64,000 nucleotides of DNA from Aneurinibacillus terranovensis DSM 18919 (GTDB taxonomy: Bacteria > Bacillota > Bacilli > Aneurinibacillales > Aneurinibacillaceae). Positions 8,234 to 28,975 of this stretch are shown piece by piece. The first letter of the stretch is position 1. The number at the start of each line of letters is the position of its first letter. The position numbers and the translations under genes are program-made. The notes beneath the pieces were generated by a model. The model made no database searches. It saw nothing but the letters and a program-made list of their open reading frames with translations, and had not been told where the DNA came from. Location: positions 1 through 64,000 of the forward strand of contig NZ_AUMJ01000034.1 in NCBI RefSeq assembly GCF_000430625.1. The letters run 5' to 3'.

Positions 8234-11200
8234 ATGAAAGTAGCTGATTTCGGGAATTTCCGCAACCATCTTGCGGAAGAACATGATAGCTGTGGCATCG
8301 TCGCAATCATTGAGAAAAATGGAAACCCACACCGGGATAATATCTCCAAAATTATAGATGCCCTCATTAAGATGGAACATCGTTCTGGTTTTATTGACGG
8401 CGAAGGGGATGGTTGCGGAATTTTAAGTGATATTCCGCGCGAGTTGTGGGCCAAGAAGTTAACCGATGCCGGTAAATCCGCTGAACTGGCCTATTCCCCT
8501 TCGTTTGCTGTCGCCCATATTTTTATTCCGACGCGCGACTTTAACGTCGGGCAGGTCATGGCAGATATTCGGAATATGTTTACAGGCAGCGGCCTTTCCA
8601 TTCAACTGGAACAGGAGAACGCTGTGAACAGCGAGGTGCTTGGAAAAAACGGACGGGCAGACGAGCCGCTGTTCTGGCAAATCGCTTCTAACTATGAAGG
8701 TTCGGAAAAAATCGAACAGGTTTTATTTGAATTGCTGATTGCCATTGAAGAAAAATATAACGTTCATGTAGCTTCACTGAGCAACTATTCGGCCTCCTAC
8801 AAAGTAATGGGCGCGGCCAACATCCTGCCGGAATACTTCCAGGATATTCAGGATCCGTTATTCGCCTCCTCTGTTACGGTAGGTCATAACCGTTATTCGA
8901 CAAACACACTTTCGAACTTTTTCCGTGTGCAGCCGTTTTCGATTCTGGGGCATAATGGTGAGATCAATACGATCCGCAAACTGGAAAACGAGGGGAAGAT
9001 GCTTGGTGTTGACCTTGTAAAAGGCGGCAGCGACTCGCAGAACCTCAATCGGGTGATCGAAACGTTCATTCACCGTTATGGGCTTTCTTTATTCGAGTCT
9101 ATGGAGATTATTTTCCCTCCTATCATTAACGAAATGAAAAACCTAAAGCCGGAACTGCAGGACTTGTACGTATATTTCCGCCAGACGTGGGGCCATTTCG
9201 CCCAGGGACCTGCGGGTATCGTGTCGCGCTATGGACATGAATGTATTTTTAGTGTTGATGCCCTCGGCCTGCGACCACTGTGGATGGTTGAAAGCGAAAC
9301 GTCCCTTTATTTTTCATCGGAACAGGGCGTTATCCCGGTTTACGAAATGGTGAGTGAACCGAAAGCTCTGGCTCCAGGTGAAAAAGTCGGCATTCAGCTA
9401 AATCCCGGTCAGCCGATTACGGTTGTTCCGCATCATGAGGTGCAGCGTCTAGTCCTTGCAAGGGCAAGTCAAAAAGCTGACTTTAAAGATTTTAACAAGC
9501 AGCTCCTTTTTGCTAAAGCGGCAGCCGCTAAAAATCCGTATGCGGACATTGACAATGTAACTAATCAACTGTATTCGGCATTCGGCTGGGAGAGGGAACA
9601 TATTCAACTGGCGGAGCAGATGTCGGCCAGCAGTGCGGAACCGATTCGTTCACTCGGCCATGACGCACCGCTAGCAGCTATTGCGAACGCACGGCAAAAC
9701 TTGCCTGATTATATAAAGGAAAGCGTAGCGGTAGTAACCAACCCGGCGATTGACCGCGAGCGTGAAATCGAGCATTTCTCGACACGGACGATACTTGGCG
9801 GACGTCCGGCTTTCTATCCGAATGTTAGACAGGTCACAGAAGGAATAGAGCTTCCTTCTCCCCTCCTGTTTGAAGGAAAAACCCTGCAGGCATTGGCTGA
9901 AAAACTGGGAACCCTGTCGTTGGAGCAGATTACTGAACACTTCTCACCCGCCTCCAGCATCATTTACACTCATTTTAATGAGGGAGAATCCATCGCCGAT
10001 GCGCTCGAACGCATTGCCGCGAACGCCGTAGCTGCTGCACAGGAAGGATCACGGATCATTCTGCTTGATGACGGACAATGCCATCAAAACAATAAATACT
10101 GGATCGATCCGCACCTCGCTATCTCCAAAGTGGATAGCGCGCTAAAAATGAATGGGGATAAACAAAGCCGGCTGCGCCGCCAAGTAAGCCTGGTTTTACG
10201 TTCGGGTGCGATTCGCAGCCTGCACGACCTGGCGCTTGCCTTTGGTCTTGGTGCAGATGCCGTCTCTCCTTATCTCCTTTTTGCCACTGTTTTTGCAAAA
10301 GAAGGGGAAGTTTCCGTACACAATCTTTATCAAGCATTGAATAAAGGATTGGAAAAAGTCATTTCAACGATTGGGATTCACGAACTGCGCGGCTATGACC
10401 GTCTTTTCTCCTCTATCGGATTGCACCAGGAAGTGGCGAATGTTCTGGATATCGTGAACTTCTGCGGCAGTGAGAAAGCCGGTTTATCGTTTGCAAACCT
10501 TGAAACAGACAGCAGAGCCCGCCATGACGACTTCACCAATGACGAAGCAAGGCCAGCGAAAATATTCCACTTGTGGCCGCGCATTTGGAAATCTATCGGT
10601 GAAGTGGCAGCCGGTAAACTGCCTTATCATGAATTCGCGGAGAAGCTGCGGGAGCAAGAAACAGAAAGTCCTACTTCCATCCGTCATCTTGCCGACTTGG
10701 ATAAATCAAAAGCGAAACAGACCGTGGAGCCCGCTTCGGTTGACATATCCATCGGGGACCACAGCCTGCCGTTCCTTATTTCTTCGATGTCCTTCGGATC
10801 ACAGAATGAAATCGCGTTCCGGGCGTATGCCGAAGCGGCGGACCAGCTTAACATGATCAGCCTGAACGGTGAGGGTGGCGAAATAAAGGATATGCTTGGC
10901 AAATACCGTCGAACCCGAGGACAGCAAATCGCTTCCGGCCGTTTCGGGGTGAATGTGGAACTCGCCAACTCGTCCAACCTGCTTGAAATTAAAATCGGAC
11001 AGGGCGCGAAACCCGGGGAAGGCGGCCACCTGCCCGGGAAAAAAGTAACCGCCAAAATTGCCGCCGCGCGTAACGCTACCATTGGTTCAGACCTGATTTC
11101 ACCGTCCAATAACCATGATATTTATTCCATTGAGGATTTGGCGCAGATGATAACCGAATTAAAGACGGCCAATAATGAAGCAAAAGTTTGCGTAAAAGTG

Positions 11201-16087: not shown

Positions 16088-16762
16088 ATGAGTTCACTTT
16101 CGCACGAACAAAGACAGCACGCGTTTCACCAGCTTGATGAAGTCAAGCGGTCGTTTGCGGCCCGCGGTTGGTTTCCCGGCACAAGCGGCAACCTGTCGAT
16201 TAAAGCTCATACAGAACCTCTCTTGATTGCGGTTACCGCAAGCGGTAAAGATAAAACAATCTCTACGCCGGAAGATTATCTCATTGTCGACGCCGAAAAT
16301 CAGCCATATGAAGCAACGAAGCTGAAACCTTCCGCTGAAACGGAAATTCATACTGCCATTTATCGCAATATTCCTCAAGCCGGGGCTGTTTTTCATATTC
16401 ATACGATTGATAATAACCTTATTTCGGAGCTGTATGGCGACACCGGTTTTGTATCATTGAAAAATCAGGAGCTGATCAAAGGCCTTGGCATTTGGGAAGA
16501 AGGAGCGGAAATTCGCATACCCATTGTAGAAAATTATGCGGACATCTCCCGCCTTGCGCGAGCGGTAGAGCAGGTGCTTGACTGCCATATTCCCGGCGTA
16601 CTGATTCGCAATCACGGGATATACGCATGGGGCAAAAACAGCTTTGAAGGAAAGCGGCACATTGAATCCTTTGAATTTTTGTTTGCCTACCATTTGCGTT
16701 GGCTCCAACTGCGTCACCTGACCGGATCCAACCCATCACCAGTGACAGTGCCGTCGCCGTGA
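16088..16762 (+). CDS. mtnB: methylthioribulose-1-phosphate dehydratase
   Basis: A class II aldolase-fold zinc enzyme that dehydrates methylthioribulose-1-phosphate. The 224-residue product has GWFPGTSGNLSIK at the N-terminus, zinc-ligand histidines in VFHIHTIDNN and a further one in RNHGIYAWG. The ATG at 16088 is two bases after the mtnX stop, with GGTGG 7 nt upstream; the TTG six bases earlier is too close to that site. In pathway order MtnB acts before MtnW, MtnX and MtnD. The kinase and isomerase genes mtnK and mtnA are not in the window. Confidence 0.94.
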   Translation: MSSLSHEQRQHAFHQLDEVKRSFAARGWFPGTSGNLSIKAHTEPLLIAVTASGKDKTISTPEDYLIVDAENQPYEATKLKPSAETEIHTAIYRNIPQAGAVFHIHTIDNNLISELYGDTGFVSLKNQELIKGLGIWEEGAEIRIPIVENYADISRLARAVEQVLDCHIPGVLIRNHGIYAWGKNSFEGKRHIESFEFLFAYHLRWLQLRHLTGSNPSPVTVPSP

Positions 16763-16846
16763 ATACAACTACTATTTTTAAATCGCATAAGTTTCTGCAC
16801 AACATAAGTGTATTTATTTATTTTTTAAATAGAGGAGGAAACGAAG

Positions 16847-17380
16847 ATGGCTTACATTCAGTTTCGTGACAATGGGGAAAAAATAGAAGGCACAGAAGAT
16901 CTGCTGCCCTTTCTAAACACGCAGGATGTTATTTATGAAAAATGGGGTGTTGAGCGTTTAAACGGCCACCTGAAGGAAAACTATGCGCTCACCGATGAAG
17001 AAAAAGCCGCCATCATTAACGCATTCCGCGAAGAAATTGATGAGCTCAGCGCGCGGCGTGGATATCAAACGGAAGATATCATCGTCCTGTCAGACCAAAC
17101 ACCGAACCTCGATGCCCTGCTGGACAAATTTAAAGAAGAACACCACCATACTGATGATGAGGTGCGCTTCTGTGTGGACGGCCACGGAATTTTCACGCTT
17201 AAAAGCAAGGATGGAAGATACTTTGATGTAGTAATGGAACCAGGCGATTTAATTTCCGTTCCGGCCTACACACGCCACTGGTTTACGCTGTGCGACGACC
17301 GAAAAATCAAATGCATCCGTATTTTCGTAACCCCCGCAGGCTGGGAAGCGATTTACGAAGAGAATACAGCCGCACAATAA
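16847..17380 (+). CDS. mtnD: acireductone dioxygenase
   Basis: A cupin metalloenzyme that oxidises acireductone to the 2-keto precursor of methionine (Fe form) or, with nickel, to an off-pathway product. The 177-residue protein carries the ARD metal motif EHHHTDDEVRFCVDG and the second ligand region PAYTRHWF. It follows mtnB by 84 bp with its own AGAGGAGGAAACG ribosome site. It completes the oxidative half of the salvage operon and is followed by a terminator. Confidence 0.96.
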   Translation: MAYIQFRDNGEKIEGTEDLLPFLNTQDVIYEKWGVERLNGHLKENYALTDEEKAAIINAFREEIDELSARRGYQTEDIIVLSDQTPNLDALLDKFKEEHHHTDDEVRFCVDGHGIFTLKSKDGRYFDVVMEPGDLISVPAYTRHWFTLCDDRKIKCIRIFVTPAGWEAIYEENTAAQ

Positions 17381-22906: not shown

Positions 22907-23107
22907 TTACTTGCTTAATTTGGATTGGAGCTGATACATGATAGAAACCCATAATGAGACCATGAGTCCCAACCAGATTACAATCGCTGCCATAAACGAT
23001 TGGTGGGCCAAAGACAATCCCCCTGCGATTAACAGAGAAAGGAGAAGGATGAAAGCCAGGCGTCCATCATCAACGAGTAATCCCCACAGCGTCGATAACA
23101 CTTTCAC
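22907..23107 (-). CDS. small two-helix membrane protein
   Basis: A 66-residue protein with two hydrophobic helices, around LAFILLLSLLIAGGL and MAAIVIWLGLMVSLW, and a short basic tail; no named family is recognised. The GTG start lies 38 bp inside the end of the upstream membrane-protein gene, with AGGAGTGAAACAGA as ribosome site. Translation is therefore probably coupled. It is the last gene of the operon lipoprotein-permease-ATPase-membrane protein. A role as accessory subunit of the FTR1-like protein is a guess from position. Confidence 0.65.
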   Translation of the reverse strand: MKVLSTLWGLLVDDGRLAFILLLSLLIAGGLSLAHQSFMAAIVIWLGLMVSLWVSIMYQLQSKLSK

Positions 23108-23861
23108 TCTGTTTCACTCCTTTCGCGTATAGTTTATTTTTGCAATATTGTACTGTTATCCAAGAGAAGATTAATAAACTAAACGACATATATACAATCG
23201 ACATGTCTTCCTGCAGCCACGACACATGCAATGCTTCTCCAACCCAGAAAGCCCCGAAACTCGTCAGCATAATTCCTACAATAAATTTCATCGTATTCTC
23301 AGGCACCTTAATTAGCGGTTTGCGCAGCACAATACCCGCTAATAAGACAACCCCTACCGCAGCCAGTGCGCCTAAAATTGTATTGTACATAAGGTTGGAA
23401 TGGGTTGAACTGGAGCCTAAGGTAATCACAATAAAAATGGCTTCCAATCCTTCTAGAAAAGTAATGCTAAGTGTTGTCATAAATCCGAACTTATCAAATT
23501 CGCCGCGGCTTTCTCCCGCTTTACGCTGGCGTTCTAATTCTTTTTGATAGCTCTCTGATTCATCATGTAATGCTTTTAACCCGGCATAGCGCATAATCGC
23601 CTTTCGTAACCATCGAATACCAAATAAAAGCATAAACAATCCTACGACCAATTGGACCCAAAAAATATGCACGATTTGAACGAGTGGGGTGCCGATTCCG
23701 ATTACCAGTGCGACCAGGATAACAATCGCAGCCGTTGCTCCGGATAAAGAGCTTTTCCATCCCCGAACTGTGCCTACCGCTAAAATAATCGTTAACGCTT
23801 CAACAAATTCTACGCTGGTCCCTAAAAAGCTTGCTAACATCGCGTAATACTCAAAAATCAA
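23070..23861 (-). CDS. FTR1-like integral membrane protein (COG4280-like)
   Basis: A 263-residue protein with about seven transmembrane helices and an internal duplication. Each half carries an E-x-x-E-A motif in a membrane segment, SVEFVEALTIIL near residue 17 and FLEGLEAIFIVI near 135. The second resembles the REGLEA motif of FTR1 iron permeases with the arginine replaced. A charged cytoplasmic loop rich in Glu and Arg joins the halves. It starts 16 bp after the ATPase stop in the same operon as an iron-type ABC importer, so metal transport is a reasonable inference. The substrate and direction are not known. Confidence 0.7.
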   Translation of the reverse strand: MIFEYYAMLASFLGTSVEFVEALTIILAVGTVRGWKSSLSGATAAIVILVALVIGIGTPLVQIVHIFWVQLVVGLFMLLFGIRWLRKAIMRYAGLKALHDESESYQKELERQRKAGESRGEFDKFGFMTTLSITFLEGLEAIFIVITLGSSSTHSNLMYNTILGALAAVGVVLLAGIVLRKPLIKVPENTMKFIVGIMLTSFGAFWVGEALHVSWLQEDMSIVYMSFSLLIFSWITVQYCKNKLYAKGVKQSESVIDAVGITR

Positions 23862-23877
23862 TGTAAACCCTCCCTAT

Positions 23878-24855
23878 TTAAACAGACTGTAACTCTCGGC
23901 ATTTTTCCGCAGGAATAAAAATTCGGACATGCTCTCCCACTTTGATTTTTTCCGGATGAGTGACTTCAATCAGATCATCATATTCAGGAACTTTCACGAA
24001 ATATCGATAGCGATGCCCGAGATAAGAACGAATTTGGATCGTCCCCATTACGGCTTGAGAATCCTGTGAGAATAATTGAATGTCATCCGGCCGAATGAAC
24101 CGTGGCACCGGTTCACCTTGTTTACGAAGAATATTCGCTGGCCCCATAAACTTAGCCACATACTCGGATACCGGTTCCTTATACAAAGTTTCCGGCGCTC
24201 CGACTTGTTCACACTTTCCTTGTTTTAATAGTAAAATTTCATCCGCCATACTCATGGCTTCCGCTTGATCATGGGTCACATAGATCACAGTCATGTTCAA
24301 CTGTTTAAAGATACGAACCAATTCAACACGCATTTCATCCCTTAGTCCCGCATCAAGAGCAGATAACGGTTCATCCATCAAGATTAATCGCGGTTCAGGG
24401 GCTATGGCGCGCGCCATGGCAATTCGTTGTTTTTGTCCACCCGATAGTTCATGGGGATACCTCGTCAAATACTCTTCCATATGAAAGATTGCTAAAGTAT
24501 CAACGACCCGCTTTTTGAGTTCGTGGCCTCTCATTCCGCGAAGCTTCAAACCAAACGACACAATTTCGAATACATTCATATGGGGCCATAAGGCAAAATC
24601 CTGAAAAACCATGCCGATATGGCGTTTTTCAATCGGAATTTCCCGGCCTGGTTCTGAAACCACCACATTATCAATGAGGATTTGACCTTGATCGATTGAT
24701 GTTAATCCGGCGATTGATTGCAGAAGGGTCGTTTTGCCGCATCCTGAAGGGCCAAGCAACGCCAAAAATGTTCCTTCTTCAATGAACAGGTCGATACCAC
24801 GCAAAACCTGTTTTTCTCCAAATTGTTTGTGAACAGATAAAAGTTGAAGGCTCAC
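23878..24855 (-). CDS. ABC importer ATP-binding protein (iron/phosphonate/polyamine class)
   Basis: A 325-residue ATPase of the CysA/FbpC/PotA class: Walker A GPSGCGKTT, Q-loop MVFQDFALWPHMNVFE, signature LSGGQKQR, Walker B LILMDEPLSALD and H-loop VTHDQAEA. A C-terminal TOBE-type regulatory domain (about 245-325) includes RFIRPDDIQLF. The GTG start overlaps the permease stop as GTGA, so the two are translationally coupled. It powers import of whatever the upstream lipoprotein binds. Confidence 0.93.
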   Translation of the reverse strand: MSLQLLSVHKQFGEKQVLRGIDLFIEEGTFLALLGPSGCGKTTLLQSIAGLTSIDQGQILIDNVVVSEPGREIPIEKRHIGMVFQDFALWPHMNVFEIVSFGLKLRGMRGHELKKRVVDTLAIFHMEEYLTRYPHELSGGQKQRIAMARAIAPEPRLILMDEPLSALDAGLRDEMRVELVRIFKQLNMTVIYVTHDQAEAMSMADEILLLKQGKCEQVGAPETLYKEPVSEYVAKFMGPANILRKQGEPVPRFIRPDDIQLFSQDSQAVMGTIQIRSYLGHRYRYFVKVPEYDDLIEVTHPEKIKVGEHVRIFIPAEKCRELQSV

Positions 24856-26633
24856 GAGATAACCTCACTTTCCGGTTGCATGGGATACGTAATCGGCGAT
24901 GTATGCTTTACCTGAATGGCTCGCATAGAAAGTGTTTGGCTGAGCTTTCGCTGGCCGTATATCAACAGTTGCCCGAACCCGTATACAACCAATACCAGCC
25001 CAATGGATAACACCGTGACAGCCGCGCCGTCCTCAACATTAAGTTCTTTATAGAACTTGGCAATCACTACAGGCAATACTGATTGGTCGGGTGGATACAA
25101 AAGTTCAGATGCCGGCAATTCGAACATGATATGACTGAAAATCAAAAACAATGTTGAAATCGTCGTACTGGAGACTAAAGGCAGCAATATTTTGCGAAAA
25201 AGTGAAAATGTGCCTGCTCCATGAACCTGCCCTGCCTGTAATAATGTTGGGCTAATTTGGGTAATGGCAGCCAATTGCAGACGAATGGAATGGGGCAAAG
25301 AACCTGCGACATACGCCAAATACAGGCAAAATAGAGTTCCGTATAAATTCAAATTGAAGGAACTTAAATATGGTGCATTCCAGGCAAAAACATAACCGGC
25401 AGCGAGCACAATGCCCGGAATGGCAAGGGTTGACATCGTCAAAATATACAAAATTTTGGTTGGAATGCCTAACTTCCTATGAATAACAAAAGCTAAACCT
25501 ATTCCAAGAACTGTCGCAGTAACGGCGGTGACAAAGGAAAGTCCCACAGAACGGATAATCGCTGATAATGATTCACTTCCGCTTTGTACGGCATGGTAGT
25601 AATGATTCAGCGTCCAATTCGATAGGATGAACCCGTCATTTGTATTATTCAGAAGCGAAGTAATAACCTCTCCACTCATTGGGACAGCATAGACAAGAAA
25701 CAGGAGCGCATAACCCAGCATCGACCATCCAATCGACGGAGCGTGTTCTGTACGATACGGTCGAATTTGGTTTTGAATAATGCTGTAGGAACCTTTTCCA
25801 AGAATCCATTTTTGGCTCCAGACTGCTACCGCGATCACTCCAATTAAAACCACAGACAGAGCACCTACCTGTGAGTAATTCACCGGCATTTGACTCAGAG
25901 CAGTAAATATGGAATACGTTAGCATCGGAATATGTGACTGCGGAACGAGAGCGGACGCAAAACCAAAGTCACTGACAGATTCAGCAAAAGTTAAGGTGGC
26001 GCCGGCCAGGATTGCAGGGAAAAGAAGTGGGATAATAATTTTTCTCCATACGCGAAACGAAGAGGCGCCCTGGATTCTTGCAGCTTCTTCAAACTCTGAA
26101 CCTAATCCCCGCAGTCCGGACCGAACGGACAAATACACTACGGGAAAGAGGCGAAAGGACATAGCGGCAATCAGTCCCCCAGGTGTAAAAAACCAGCTGA
26201 GTTTTCCGTCCGGGAGATGAAAAAGTTCACTTATGATCCCTTTGTCCTGCATCATTAAAACCCATCCTTCGGCTACCAAATAGGACGGTGTAAAAAAGAT
26301 CAGCCAGATAATTACGTTCATTGCCTTTTCCCCATAAATCCATTTCCGATGGACGATGACCGCGAAAAACGAACCTAATATGGCCGAAAGAAGTGCCGTT
26401 CCTCCGCCGAATAAGAAGGCGTTGACGATTGCCTGATAGGTATAGCTGTCTTTGCCTATCGTTGCGAATGTCTGAAATGAAAATTCCTGAAAGCCCTGAT
26501 CAAACAGTTGCGGAAACACACTTTGCAAAAGAACTGTTCCCAGGGGGTATGCGACCAGGCCAAGCAGCACGAGTATACCAGGCCAGGTCAGCAAAGAGCG
26601 TTGAAGGGCTTTCCTTTGCTTATTTCTGAACAA
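24852..26633 (-). CDS. ABC importer permease, two fused membrane domains (FbpB/ThiP-like)
   Basis: The 593-residue product contains two copies of the binding-protein-dependent permease domain, each with about six helices and an EAA-type loop: EEAARIQGASSFRVW near residue 190 and LLQAGQVHGAGTFSLF near 475. This fused form is typical of ferric iron, thiamine and 2-aminoethylphosphonate importers. The start is uncertain. The reading frame is open much further upstream into the lipoprotein gene. TTG at 26633, 14 bp before the lipoprotein stop, is preferred because the hydrophobic region begins shortly after it. Confidence 0.88.
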   Translation of the reverse strand: MFRNKQRKALQRSLLTWPGILVLLGLVAYPLGTVLLQSVFPQLFDQGFQEFSFQTFATIGKDSYTYQAIVNAFLFGGGTALLSAILGSFFAVIVHRKWIYGEKAMNVIIWLIFFTPSYLVAEGWVLMMQDKGIISELFHLPDGKLSWFFTPGGLIAAMSFRLFPVVYLSVRSGLRGLGSEFEEAARIQGASSFRVWRKIIIPLLFPAILAGATLTFAESVSDFGFASALVPQSHIPMLTYSIFTALSQMPVNYSQVGALSVVLIGVIAVAVWSQKWILGKGSYSIIQNQIRPYRTEHAPSIGWSMLGYALLFLVYAVPMSGEVITSLLNNTNDGFILSNWTLNHYYHAVQSGSESLSAIIRSVGLSFVTAVTATVLGIGLAFVIHRKLGIPTKILYILTMSTLAIPGIVLAAGYVFAWNAPYLSSFNLNLYGTLFCLYLAYVAGSLPHSIRLQLAAITQISPTLLQAGQVHGAGTFSLFRKILLPLVSSTTISTLFLIFSHIMFELPASELLYPPDQSVLPVVIAKFYKELNVEDGAAVTVLSIGLVLVVYGFGQLLIYGQRKLSQTLSMRAIQVKHTSPITYPMQPESEVIS

Positions 26634-27687
26634 TGTTTTGTGTAAACCACTGCTTGATTTCGTTCTCGTGCTGTGCACCAAAGACCGGATCTTCTGTATT
26701 CCACTTAATTCCGTCCGGACGAATTCCCTGCTTTCCAGGCGCGCCTTGAATGATTGATTCAAAGTTGGCATCACCGTCGTCAATAGAGGAAGCCACTTTT
26801 TGTCCTTCGGCGCTTAAAGCAAAATCAACAAATTTCTTGGCTGCTTCCAGGTGAGGAGCTTTGGCGTCGATCGCGATATTGCTGCTTAACGTGGTAACGC
26901 CGGATTTTGGATAAATAATTTTAACCGGGGCATTCTTCTTGATTTTATCGATAATAGCGGAATCCTGAGCAATTGCAAATTTCACATTTCCTTTAATTAA
27001 ATTGGTTAATGTCGGTCCGTTTGAATCGTACACACGAAGCCCGTTGGCTTTTAATTTAGTGAAGAAGTCTTGACCTTGAGGAATCCCGCCTTGTAATTCC
27101 ATCAGTCCTAATACCGTGGTATACGTTGGGCCGGAAATACTGGGATTATTCATGGCGAAAGAGCCTTTGTACTCAGGCTTTAGCAAATCAGACCAATCCT
27201 TAGGAGCCTCTGAATCTTTAACGAATTTGGTGTTGTAAGCAATCGCGCCGGCAGCGGTAACGGACGCAGGAAAGTACGCATGATCTTTTGGCATCATTTT
27301 TTTACCCAGTTCTGAATAGTTCGAGGAATTAGAAGGGATGTAGTCTTTGTAAAGCATGTTCTGGTTATCCAACCCTTGCATGGAAGAAGGTCCGTCAAAC
27401 CAGGCTACATCCCATTGCGGATTTGATTTTTCAGCCTGCATACGCGCTAACAGTGGTCCGGTGGAATCATCGACTAATTTCACTTTAATTCCTGTTTTCT
27501 TTTCAAAGGCTTGAGCAATGTCTTTATCAAACGCTTCAGCGGAATAAAAAACCAGCTCTTTATCCCCTTTAGAAGAACTGTCGTTTGTTGCTGCTTTACC
27601 ATTGGCCGAGGCGCTACAGCCGGTTGCCAGCATAGCAACCATAGTAGTAATAGAACCTATTTGAACTAGTCGATTCATTTTTCTCAC
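26620..27687 (-). CDS. ABC importer substrate-binding lipoprotein (FbpA/AfuA-like)
   Basis: A 355-residue extracellular solute-binding protein anchored by lipid: basic N-terminus, hydrophobic stretch, and lipobox LATGC at about residues 20-24. The mature part follows the ferric-type binding protein pattern, with ELVFYSAEAFDKDIAQAFEKKTGIKV, WDVAWFDGPSS, DWSDLLKPEYKGSFAM, and GAIAYNTKFV. The adjacent tyrosine pair that binds Fe3+ in classical FbpA is missing, so the ligand may be an organophosphonate, a chelate or another oxyanion. The GTG at 27687 is chosen because AGGAGG stands 8 nt before it. The gene heads the operon and is divergent from the split chrB pair. Confidence 0.9.
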   Translation of the reverse strand: MRKMNRLVQIGSITTMVAMLATGCSASANGKAATNDSSSKGDKELVFYSAEAFDKDIAQAFEKKTGIKVKLVDDSTGPLLARMQAEKSNPQWDVAWFDGPSSMQGLDNQNMLYKDYIPSNSSNYSELGKKMMPKDHAYFPASVTAAGAIAYNTKFVKDSEAPKDWSDLLKPEYKGSFAMNNPSISGPTYTTVLGLMELQGGIPQGQDFFTKLKANGLRVYDSNGPTLTNLIKGNVKFAIAQDSAIIDKIKKNAPVKIIYPKSGVTTLSSNIAIDAKAPHLEAAKKFVDFALSAEGQKVASSIDDGDANFESIIQGAPGKQGIRPDGIKWNTEDPVFGAQHENEIKQWFTQNIVQK

Positions 27688-27816
27688 AGCACATTCCTCC
27701 TGGATTAGATGTCTTTTCACATCCCTAAGTATAGGAGGAAAATATAATGTATTTGTTGTACATATGTAAATTTACTGTAAAATTGACAATAATGTAAATA
27801 TTAGTAAATACAAATA

Positions 27817-27842
27817 CACCACACTCATTGCAAGTTGTGGTG
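27817..27842. repeat. inverted repeat in the divergent control region
   Basis: CACCACA (27817-27823) and TGTGGTG (27836-27842) form a perfect 7-bp inverted repeat with a 12-bp centre. It is midway between the importer lipoprotein gene and chrB. No T-run follows and no gene ends here, so a protein-binding site is more likely than a terminator. Confidence 0.5.
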
Positions 27843-27913
27843 AAGTTTGCGAATTTGTCTAAAATACACGTATTGTTTCTACTTTAAATATAATATACTT
27901 GATTTAAAAAAAT

Positions 27914-27948
27914 ATAACAATTGTTATTTTATAACCATGGTTATAAAA
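27914..27948. promoter_or_regulatory. tandem palindromic operators upstream of split chrB
   Basis: Two perfect palindromes share the format ATAAC-N4-GTTAT: ATAACAATTGTTAT at 27914-27927, and ATAACCATGGTTAT at 27931-27944, which extends to a perfect 22-bp palindrome (27927-27948). Their centres are 17 bp apart, about 1.6 helical turns, and the pair ends 15 bp before the chrB start. The repeated half-site ATAAC strongly suggests a dimeric regulator binding twice. The ChrB N-terminal-domain protein made from this gene is a candidate regulator. Confidence 0.75.
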
Positions 27949-27963
27949 CGAAGGTGTGAAAAC

Positions 27964-28461
27964 ATGAATTGGGTTGTATTTATTTATAAAGTCCCTTCTA
28001 CCCCAACGAAATATCGCGCTTATCTTTGGCGAGAAATTAAAAAGCTGGGTGCCATTTACTTGCAAGACGGGGTATGCGTTGTTCCAGATTCAGATGATAC
28101 GCACTTATTCATAGGGTCTTTAGCTGAAAAGGTAAATGAATTTGGCGGGCAAGAGTATACTTTTCTCTCCACTACATTTTCTAAAGAAAAGAATGAGGAA
28201 ATGATACGGCAATTTAATATTGCCAGAAATCAAGAATATCAGGAATTGATTCCTCGGGTTCATCGCATTCAGGAATATTTTCAGGAAGAGGAGGACTGGG
28301 AGTTTAGCGAGTCACAGGCCCGAAAAATAAGAGAGGAATTCCAAAAACTATTGCGTCAATTTCAAGCCATAGAAACCCGGGATTATTTTGAAGCGGATGC
28401 AGGACGAAAGTTACAGTTAATGATCAACGAATGCAGGAAACAATTAATTCGACATTTCTAA
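27964..28461 (+). CDS. ChrB N-terminal-domain protein (chromate-resistance regulator-like)
   Basis: The 165-residue product matches the N-terminal half of ChrB: WVVFIYKVPSTPTKYRAYLWREIKKLGAIYLQDGVCVVP at the start (a PaaX/ChrB-type opening), then a helical, highly charged C-terminal half. In proteobacteria ChrB is one protein and is needed for chromate-induced expression. Here the C-terminal half is a separate gene 79 bp on. The ATG at 27964 has AAGGTGTG before it. Upstream frames run through the palindromes and are not supported. It may autoregulate through them. No chrA transporter is present. Confidence 0.8.
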   Translation: MNWVVFIYKVPSTPTKYRAYLWREIKKLGAIYLQDGVCVVPDSDDTHLFIGSLAEKVNEFGGQEYTFLSTTFSKEKNEEMIRQFNIARNQEYQELIPRVHRIQEYFQEEEDWEFSESQARKIREEFQKLLRQFQAIETRDYFEADAGRKLQLMINECRKQLIRHF

Positions 28462-28540
28462 AGAACGCTTGGTAAATTTCAAATGTTCACTGGACGTAAA
28501 AACAATCACACAATTTATATGGTAAGGAGTGGTTCATCAG

Positions 28541-28975
28541 ATGAAGTGGGTTACCAGAGAACATGCTAATGTTGAACGGGTTGCTTGTCCCTGGTTAATT
28601 AAACGGTTTATAGATAAAGAAGCTATATTTGACTTTGTTCCTAACAATACCAATCCGGAAACGATTACCGACGGAATTCCTTTCGATATGAAAGGGGTTG
28701 AGCTTGGTCATCACAATGGCAGATGCAGCTTTGAATCGTTTCTCTTAAAATATAAACTGGATAACGACCCTGCGTTAGTTTTAATGGGATCGATCATACA
28801 TGGTGCCGATATTCCGATTGATATTGATATCACTCGTGAATCAGCCGGACTGAGAGCTATTGCTTTTGGGTTCCATTATCTAGGGATTACTGACCATGAA
28901 AAAATCGAATTGCAGATCCCTATGTATGATGCATTATATGCCTGGTGCCAGCGGAAGGTAGGGGATTATACATAG
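28541..28975 (+). CDS. ChrB C-terminal-domain protein
   Basis: A 144-residue protein matching the C-terminal ChrB domain. It opens with the family hallmark MKWVTREHANVERVACPWL, followed by KRFIDKEA, the histidine- and cysteine-bearing GVELGHHNGRCSFESF, and GSIIHGADIPID. The conserved Arg, Cys, His and Glu residues look like a catalytic or metal site. No biochemical role for the separate domain is known to me. The ATG is preceded by TAAGGAG at a slightly long spacing; a GTG four codons earlier is the alternative. It is cotranscribed with the N-domain gene and ends at a terminator. Confidence 0.83.
   Translation: MKWVTREHANVERVACPWLIKRFIDKEAIFDFVPNNTNPETITDGIPFDMKGVELGHHNGRCSFESFLLKYKLDNDPALVLMGSIIHGADIPIDIDITRESAGLRAIAFGFHYLGITDHEKIELQIPMYDALYAWCQRKVGDYT

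Follow-up and report, generated by a model that had tools for sequence, protein, structure and literature searches.

Why should the two domains of the chromate regulator ChrB, encoded by separate genes, stand next to a transport operon that is not for ChrA? The question is raised by a 64 000-nucleotide stretch of Aneurinibacillus terranovensis DSM 18919 (contig NZ_AUMJ01000034.1, positions 1 to 64 000; hereafter the window). Here the plus-strand genes chrB_N and chrB_C are divergent from a minus-strand operon that encodes, in this order, a substrate-binding lipoprotein (SBP), a fused ATP-binding cassette (ABC) permease, an ATPase, an FTR1-like membrane protein and a 66-residue two-helix membrane protein (2TM). 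The explanation that we favour, and consider fairly likely as a whole, is that a split ChrB repressor binds palindromic sites in the intergenic region, is relieved by an effector and in this way controls expression of the importer and of the FTR1-like/2TM pair.

A search of genomes for co-occurrence revealed that the genes form a recurrent unit; their adjacency extends beyond one strain and is accompanied by a shared palindromic site. All seven genes lie together in a genome from another Bacilli family (G095, locus L011), with identities to the window proteins of 70% for ChrB_N, 84% for ChrB_C, 64% for the FTR1-like protein, 55% for SBP, 45% for the ATPase and about 40% for the permease. The chrB pair is convergent with the operon in L011 instead of divergent, so the locus has been rearranged while staying together. 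A profile search with the FTR1-like protein identified strong relatives in eight other Bacillota loci, and further ones in Desulfosporosinus-like genomes, on plasmids of Rhizobiales and Rhodobacterales, on an Arthrobacter plasmid and in Chloroflexi. Of the 37 FTR1-like loci, 14 have a ChrB_N gene no more than about 8 kb away, usually as the adjacent gene. The complete series SBP-permease-ATPase-FTR1-like-2TM occurs in the window, in L011 and in seven more Bacillota loci (L110, L114, L141, L144, L150, L151 and L152), four of these seven having ChrB_N nearby. In L150, an intact ChrB_C gene (52%; 9133–9579) is located between the ATPase and FTR1-like genes. L144, from Acididesulfobacillus acetoxydans, has a degraded ChrB_C fragment between the same two genes (9314–9448), and L114 has a gene for a zinc-dependent phospholipase C between chrB_N and the SBP operon (16163–16858). 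No relative was found on viral contigs. In the open literature available to us we found no description of this system and no paper linking ChrB with FTR1-like or GDT1-named proteins.

The two palindromes in the intergenic region are perfect, one of 22 bp (27927–27948) and one of 14 bp (27914–27927), and each is centred on TAAC-N4-GTTA. They are located 16–50 bp upstream of the chrB_N start and about 200–230 bp upstream of the SBP start. The 4.25-Mb genome of the window (G000) and G095 each contain the exact tandem pair a single time, in both cases at promoters of the system. Because the only occurrence in 4.25 Mb is at the window locus, the pair is more than a chance finding and is a predicted operator. 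In L011 both the SBP operon and chrB_N are preceded by exact dyads. Others precede chrB_N (L109, L124) or the FTR1-like gene (L110, L114, L151, L152), or lie between divergent genes (L120), and in the alphaproteobacterial loci the dyad takes the form TTAC-N4-GTAA. Of 14 loci with ChrB_N, 13 have the general pattern TWAC-N4-GTWA at a promoter of chrB_N, the FTR1-like gene or the SBP gene, versus two of the 23 loci without ChrB_N (P = 3.8e-7 in a Fisher test, which ignores relatedness). One of these two, L153, is a short contig that may have lost ChrB_N by truncation. When the counts are collapsed to genera, the site is still present in every ChrB_N lineage of this small sample.

As the pattern had first been seen on FTR1-like loci, it was retested on an independent sample of 40 Bacillota ChrB_N loci by scanning the upstream 260 bp, with 1000 shuffles as control. 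An exact TAAC-N4-GTTA dyad was found upstream of 20 of the 40 genes, typically 27–60 bp from the start codon, whereas the 1000 shuffles averaged 0.22 and never exceeded 3. The bases flanking the searched dyad are also kept and extend it to ATGTAAC-N4-GTTACAT, with G/C at ±7 in 83%. Among chromate-type ChrB_N genes, the dyad is present in four of 16.

ChrB of Ochrobactrum tritici represses its own operon; mutation of R18 or R23 makes expression constitutive, and mutants in R180, R187 or H229 do not respond to chromate (PMC3817168). All five residues have counterparts in the ChrB pair of the window. R18 and R23, together with W22, are invariant among 23 ChrB_N proteins including that of the window, with identical numbering. 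R180, R187 and H229 correspond to R6, R13 and H57 of the window ChrB_C in an alignment via the classical ChrB of L087. The O. tritici numbering was derived by way of the residue spacing in L087 and not read off the O. tritici sequence itself; the published spacing (R175, 180, 182, 187, 195, 196, C213, H229) fits L087 exactly. Across 41 ChrB_C sequences R13 and H57 are invariant and R6 is kept in at least 90%. The preliminary description of this locus had left open whether the ChrB-type proteins sense or process an imported substrate. Retention of the residues mapped to DNA binding and to the chromate response speaks for sensing rather than processing, with DNA binding as the predicted function of ChrB_N and an effector response as that of ChrB_C. 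The two proteins are thus predicted to be a split ChrB-type regulator of a non-ChrA transport operon, and the regulatory part of this assignment is strong. The split had been set against the single-chain ChrB of proteobacteria. This contrast is not supported, as ordinary chrA clusters of Bacillota (L008, L009) likewise have separate chrB_N and chrB_C genes. The FTR1-associated ChrB_N proteins differ from the chrA-associated ones in a longer helical stretch, and they cluster together with the exception of one long-branch sequence.

The features of the locus are listed in the table. They bear out the separate ChrB genes and the tightly packed operon of the preliminary description.

Features of the split-ChrB locus in the window (start codons of the SBP, permease and FTR1-like genes are likely starts, judged from sequence)
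Feature	Position	Strand	Remarks
2TM, 66-residue two-helix membrane protein	22907..23107	-	constant partner 3' of FTR1-like gene
FTR1-like (OFeT_1/GDT1-like) membrane protein	23070..23861	-	PF16955; TTG start 23861 behind GGAGGG
ABC ATPase with TOBE domain	23878..24855	-	PF00005, PF08402
Fused two-domain ABC permease	24852..26594	-	PF00528 twice; likely TTG start near 26594, read from sequence
SBP, AfuA/P5PA/PhnS2 group	26620..27684	-	likely GTG start 27684 behind AGGAGG; ORF (open reading frame) reaches 27720
Tandem predicted operator, ATAACAATTGTTAT + TTTTATAACCATGGTTATAAAA	27914..27948	.	two TAAC-N4-GTTA dyads 17 bp apart
ChrB_N, 165 residues	27964..28461	+	Pfam PF20229, E = 4.5e-17; also PF20803; Cas2-like/PaaX_M-like N-terminal region
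ChrB_C, 144 residues, candidate effector-sensing domain	28541..28975	+	PF09828, E = 7.7e-43

The permease and ATPase genes overlap by 4 bp, the ATPase and FTR1-like genes are 16 bp apart, and the FTR1-like and 2TM genes overlap by about 37 bp. The sodA gene, whose position beyond the operon had been taken to recall chrBACF clusters, is convergent with the operon and missing beside L011; it was rejected as a part of the system and its adjacency is incidental. The genome contains a single ChrB_N and a single ChrB_C. The reported absence of ChrA holds for the locus, in which neither ChrA nor ChrF was seen, but not for the genome, which has a short ChrA pair at G000:C22:9892-10973. No operator dyad is found near that pair, and its regulation by the dyad was discarded. 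A true FTR1 gene (PF03239; G000:C14:58316-59194) also has no dyad nearby.

The FTR1-like protein matches OFeT_1 (PF16955, E = 1.9e-9) with 38 bits against a gathering score of 26.9. All 26 members of its family match OFeT_1, and 21 of them show a weak match to GDT1 (PF01169), for which the window protein scores 17.8 bits at a cut-off of 27 and has no E-x-G-D-[KR] motif. By profile the family aligns with both FTR1 and GDT1. Its two E-x-x-E motifs (V-E-x-V-E and L-E-G-x-E) line up with REGLE, the Arg of which is missing from both in all 26 members. On these alignments the family appears intermediate between FTR1/OFeT and GDT1. Two E-x-x-E motifs that lack the arginine of FTR1 suggest a divalent cation as cargo; GDT1 proteins are divalent cation/proton antiporters. 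Single-sequence structure prediction was poor (predicted local distance difference test, pLDDT, 60; predicted template modelling score 0.28).

The 66-residue ORF next to it has no family match. It is nevertheless taken as real because it is conserved in a second Bacilli family (55–56% identity in L011) and because a two-helix gene directly follows the FTR1-like gene at every FTR1-like locus examined, that is 37 of 37 in Bacillota, Alphaproteobacteria, an actinobacterium and Chloroflexi. The protein mostly has 58–90 residues; in a few loci a longer frame runs from the first start codon. On a small plasmid of Alicyclobacillus fastidiosus (L116) the pair is 62% identical to that of the window, in a stretch read without importer or ChrB. 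On six alphaproteobacterial plasmids (L117, L122, L123, L155, L157, L158) it is annotated as TMEM165/GDT1 family protein and is located near PAP2 phosphatases, tyrosine phosphatases, lspA or heavy-metal P-type ATPases, a context reminiscent of lead-resistance (pbr) operons.

The foremost alternative is metal tolerance. The FTR1-like/2TM pair would then be an exporter of a divalent cation (Mn, Ca, Fe or Pb) or a PbrT-like carrier, ChrB would sense the metal or metal-induced stress, and the ABC importer would be a secondary addition restricted to Bacillota. We regard this as unlikely, though it deserves to be kept in mind. It agrees with the OFeT_1 and GDT1 matches of the family, with the presence of heavy-metal P-type ATPases, cation diffusion facilitator or resistance-nodulation-division efflux genes, lspA and PAP2 phosphatases near the alphaproteobacterial plasmid pairs, and with ChrB_N genes elsewhere that precede Ca-type P-type ATPases or an Na/Ca exchanger. 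The Bacillota pair, however, shares its operon with an importer whose SBP looks non-metal-binding, and the sequence does not reveal which way the cargo is moved.

The importer had been called iron-type, a label that the SBP does not support, since iron-binding tyrosines are absent and a phosphate-type pocket appears to be present. Its closest PDB entries are AfuA-like 8x1a, AfuA 4r72, P5PA 6wce and the AEP-binding protein 4r6y, followed only then by ferric binders. AfuA binds hexose phosphate and P5PA pyridoxal phosphate, and their phosphate site has been described (PMC4546632, PMC8427247). AfuA-type SBPs have Ser/Thr-Gly and Ser-Gly-Thr at the phosphate site and His205/Asp206 at the sugar site. 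The SBP of the window retains the Thr-Gly and Ser-Gly, while Thr150 and His205 of AfuA are replaced by Pro and Gln. All nine SBP family members compared share the motifs STG, SGPT and QDSA without variation. The adjacent Tyr pair of the FbpA type is missing, the TYY of 1y4t being aligned to non-Tyr residues. PhnS2, PhnT2 and PhnU2 are among the best NCBIfam matches of the importer, all under cut-off, with PhnU2 the best for the permease. Our best guess from these comparisons is a ligand with a phosphate-like group; free oxyanions may also be bound.

The annotation as iron-type transporters, the FbpB-like fused permease and the OFeT_1 match could also indicate an operon for uptake of ferric or ferrous iron (FbpABC with FTR1) that answers to iron regulators, ChrB being an incidental neighbour. 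This is improbable. The ChrB association recurs across phyla together with a predicted operator, EfeO and EfeB are not in the locus, and the replaced SBP tyrosines and the missing REGLE Arg speak against a simple iron-uptake operon. Least probable is resistance to a toxic oxyanion (chromate or other) in which the ChrB proteins enzymatically process the imported substrate: many genomes have ChrB_C without a nearby ChrB_N (among the matches listed), which would allow a non-regulatory activity, and there is a very weak fold resemblance to phosphodiesterases, but the locus has no ChrA, the DNA-binding residues and predicted operator are conserved, and ChrB_C has no significant fold match to any enzyme. 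The predicted ChrB_C structure is confident (pLDDT 94), and no PDB match was found under E = 1; the weak best matches include the phosphodiesterases PggH and NrN.

In the scheme that we prefer, ChrB_N and ChrB_C would each supply half of a ChrB-type repressor of transcription, rather than of an activator, and would pair physically. ChrB_N would bind both TAAC-N4-GTTA dyads and repress its own gene and probably also the divergent five-gene operon. Repression would be lifted when ChrB_C, via its conserved Arg/Arg/His, binds an effector, for which a tetrahedral oxyanion or a compound that carries an oxyanion is the most likely candidate. Derepression would yield two transport activities: an importer resembling AfuABC/PhnSTU, which would take up a ligand carrying a phosphate-like group, and a permease of the FTR1/GDT1 kind, which together with its two-helix subunit would handle a divalent cation in either direction.

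Several observations weigh against this scheme. The full seven-gene set is present in two genomes only. Among the 14 FTR1-like loci with ChrB_N, ChrB_C is beside it just in the window and L011, so ChrB_C is inessential to the wider association, and four of the 14 are near relatives from one genus. Half of the 40 sampled Bacillota ChrB_N genes have no exact dyad within 260 bp. Desulfosporosinus-type loci place the dyad inside the operon, upstream of the FTR1-like gene and not of SBP. The published repeat in the chr promoter of O. tritici, where ChrB binds directly before chrB, matches the dyad imperfectly (TTAT-TGTA-GTAA, 7/8; PMC3817168). Apart from this, ChrB_C occurs in five of 300 sampled Bacilli genomes, one of them G095. 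It was tried as a marker of the system and rejected: genes of its MKWVTRE subfamily stand alone in many bacteria and in some archaea (L012–L091). Among the matches listed, none of 80 loci of this subfamily has the FTR1-like protein or this importer nearby; closer relatives may exist.

ChrB_N was detected in 49 of 398 sampled Bacillota genomes. In L252–L291 it is encoded mostly without ChrB_C and directly upstream of transporter genes, often with a dyad just before it. The 36 neighbours scanned include 27 major facilitator superfamily proteins, three Ca-type P-type ATPases (downstream of ChrB_N in L280, L281 and L284), one Na/Ca exchanger (L252) and four acyltransferases. As these are mostly transporters, ChrB_N seems to regulate transport genes in general, chromate efflux being one case and the window operon another. 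To our knowledge, ChrB has so far been known solely as a regulator of chromate resistance. We tentatively propose, at somewhat less than even confidence, that ChrB_N is a widespread Cas2-like regulator without a recognized helix-turn-helix that recognizes ATGTAAC-N4-GTTACAT and controls many kinds of transporter, and that in the window, in a system not described before, uptake of a ligand bearing phosphate is coupled by a split oxyanion sensor to the movement of a divalent cation via the FTR1/GDT1-like permease and its two-helix subunit. The label ‘chromate resistance protein ChrB’ is probably wrong for most of the family, because one DNA site ties ChrB_N in Bacillota, Alphaproteobacteria and an actinobacterium to mostly non-ChrA transporters. 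The predicted operator gives easy entry to direct tests and a first functional handle on the unnamed FTR1/GDT1-like family and its constant partner.

Among the nearest known systems is ChrB of the O. tritici transposon TnOtChr (chrBACF), which has the same N-terminal DNA-binding region, C-terminal responsive domain and site directly before chrB (PMC3817168). It differs from the window, where ChrB is two proteins beside an importer and FTR1-like/2TM operon and where the predicted operator is different and better defined. In chrBACF, ChrB, ChrA, the superoxide dismutase-type ChrC and ChrF share one operon, unlike the convergent, non-conserved SodA of the window. The Bacillota chrA clusters L008 and L009 have the same two ChrB domains in neighbouring genes, but adjoin ChrA, and their ChrB_N is without the longer helical region. 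The importer resembles AfuABC, P5PAB and PhnSTU2 in its best structural and NCBIfam matches and in retaining Thr-Gly and Ser-Gly of the phosphate site, but stays under the NCBIfam cut-offs, has no counterpart of the sugar-binding His205 of AfuA and is operon-linked to FTR1-like/2TM. The FTR1-like family shares OFeT_1 similarity with PbrT-type proteins, weak similarity with GDT1/TMEM165 and the E-x-x-E pair at the position of REGLE in FTR1; it is set apart from FTR1 and GDT1 by the lack of the REGLE Arg and of E-x-G-D-[KR] and by its constant two-helix partner.

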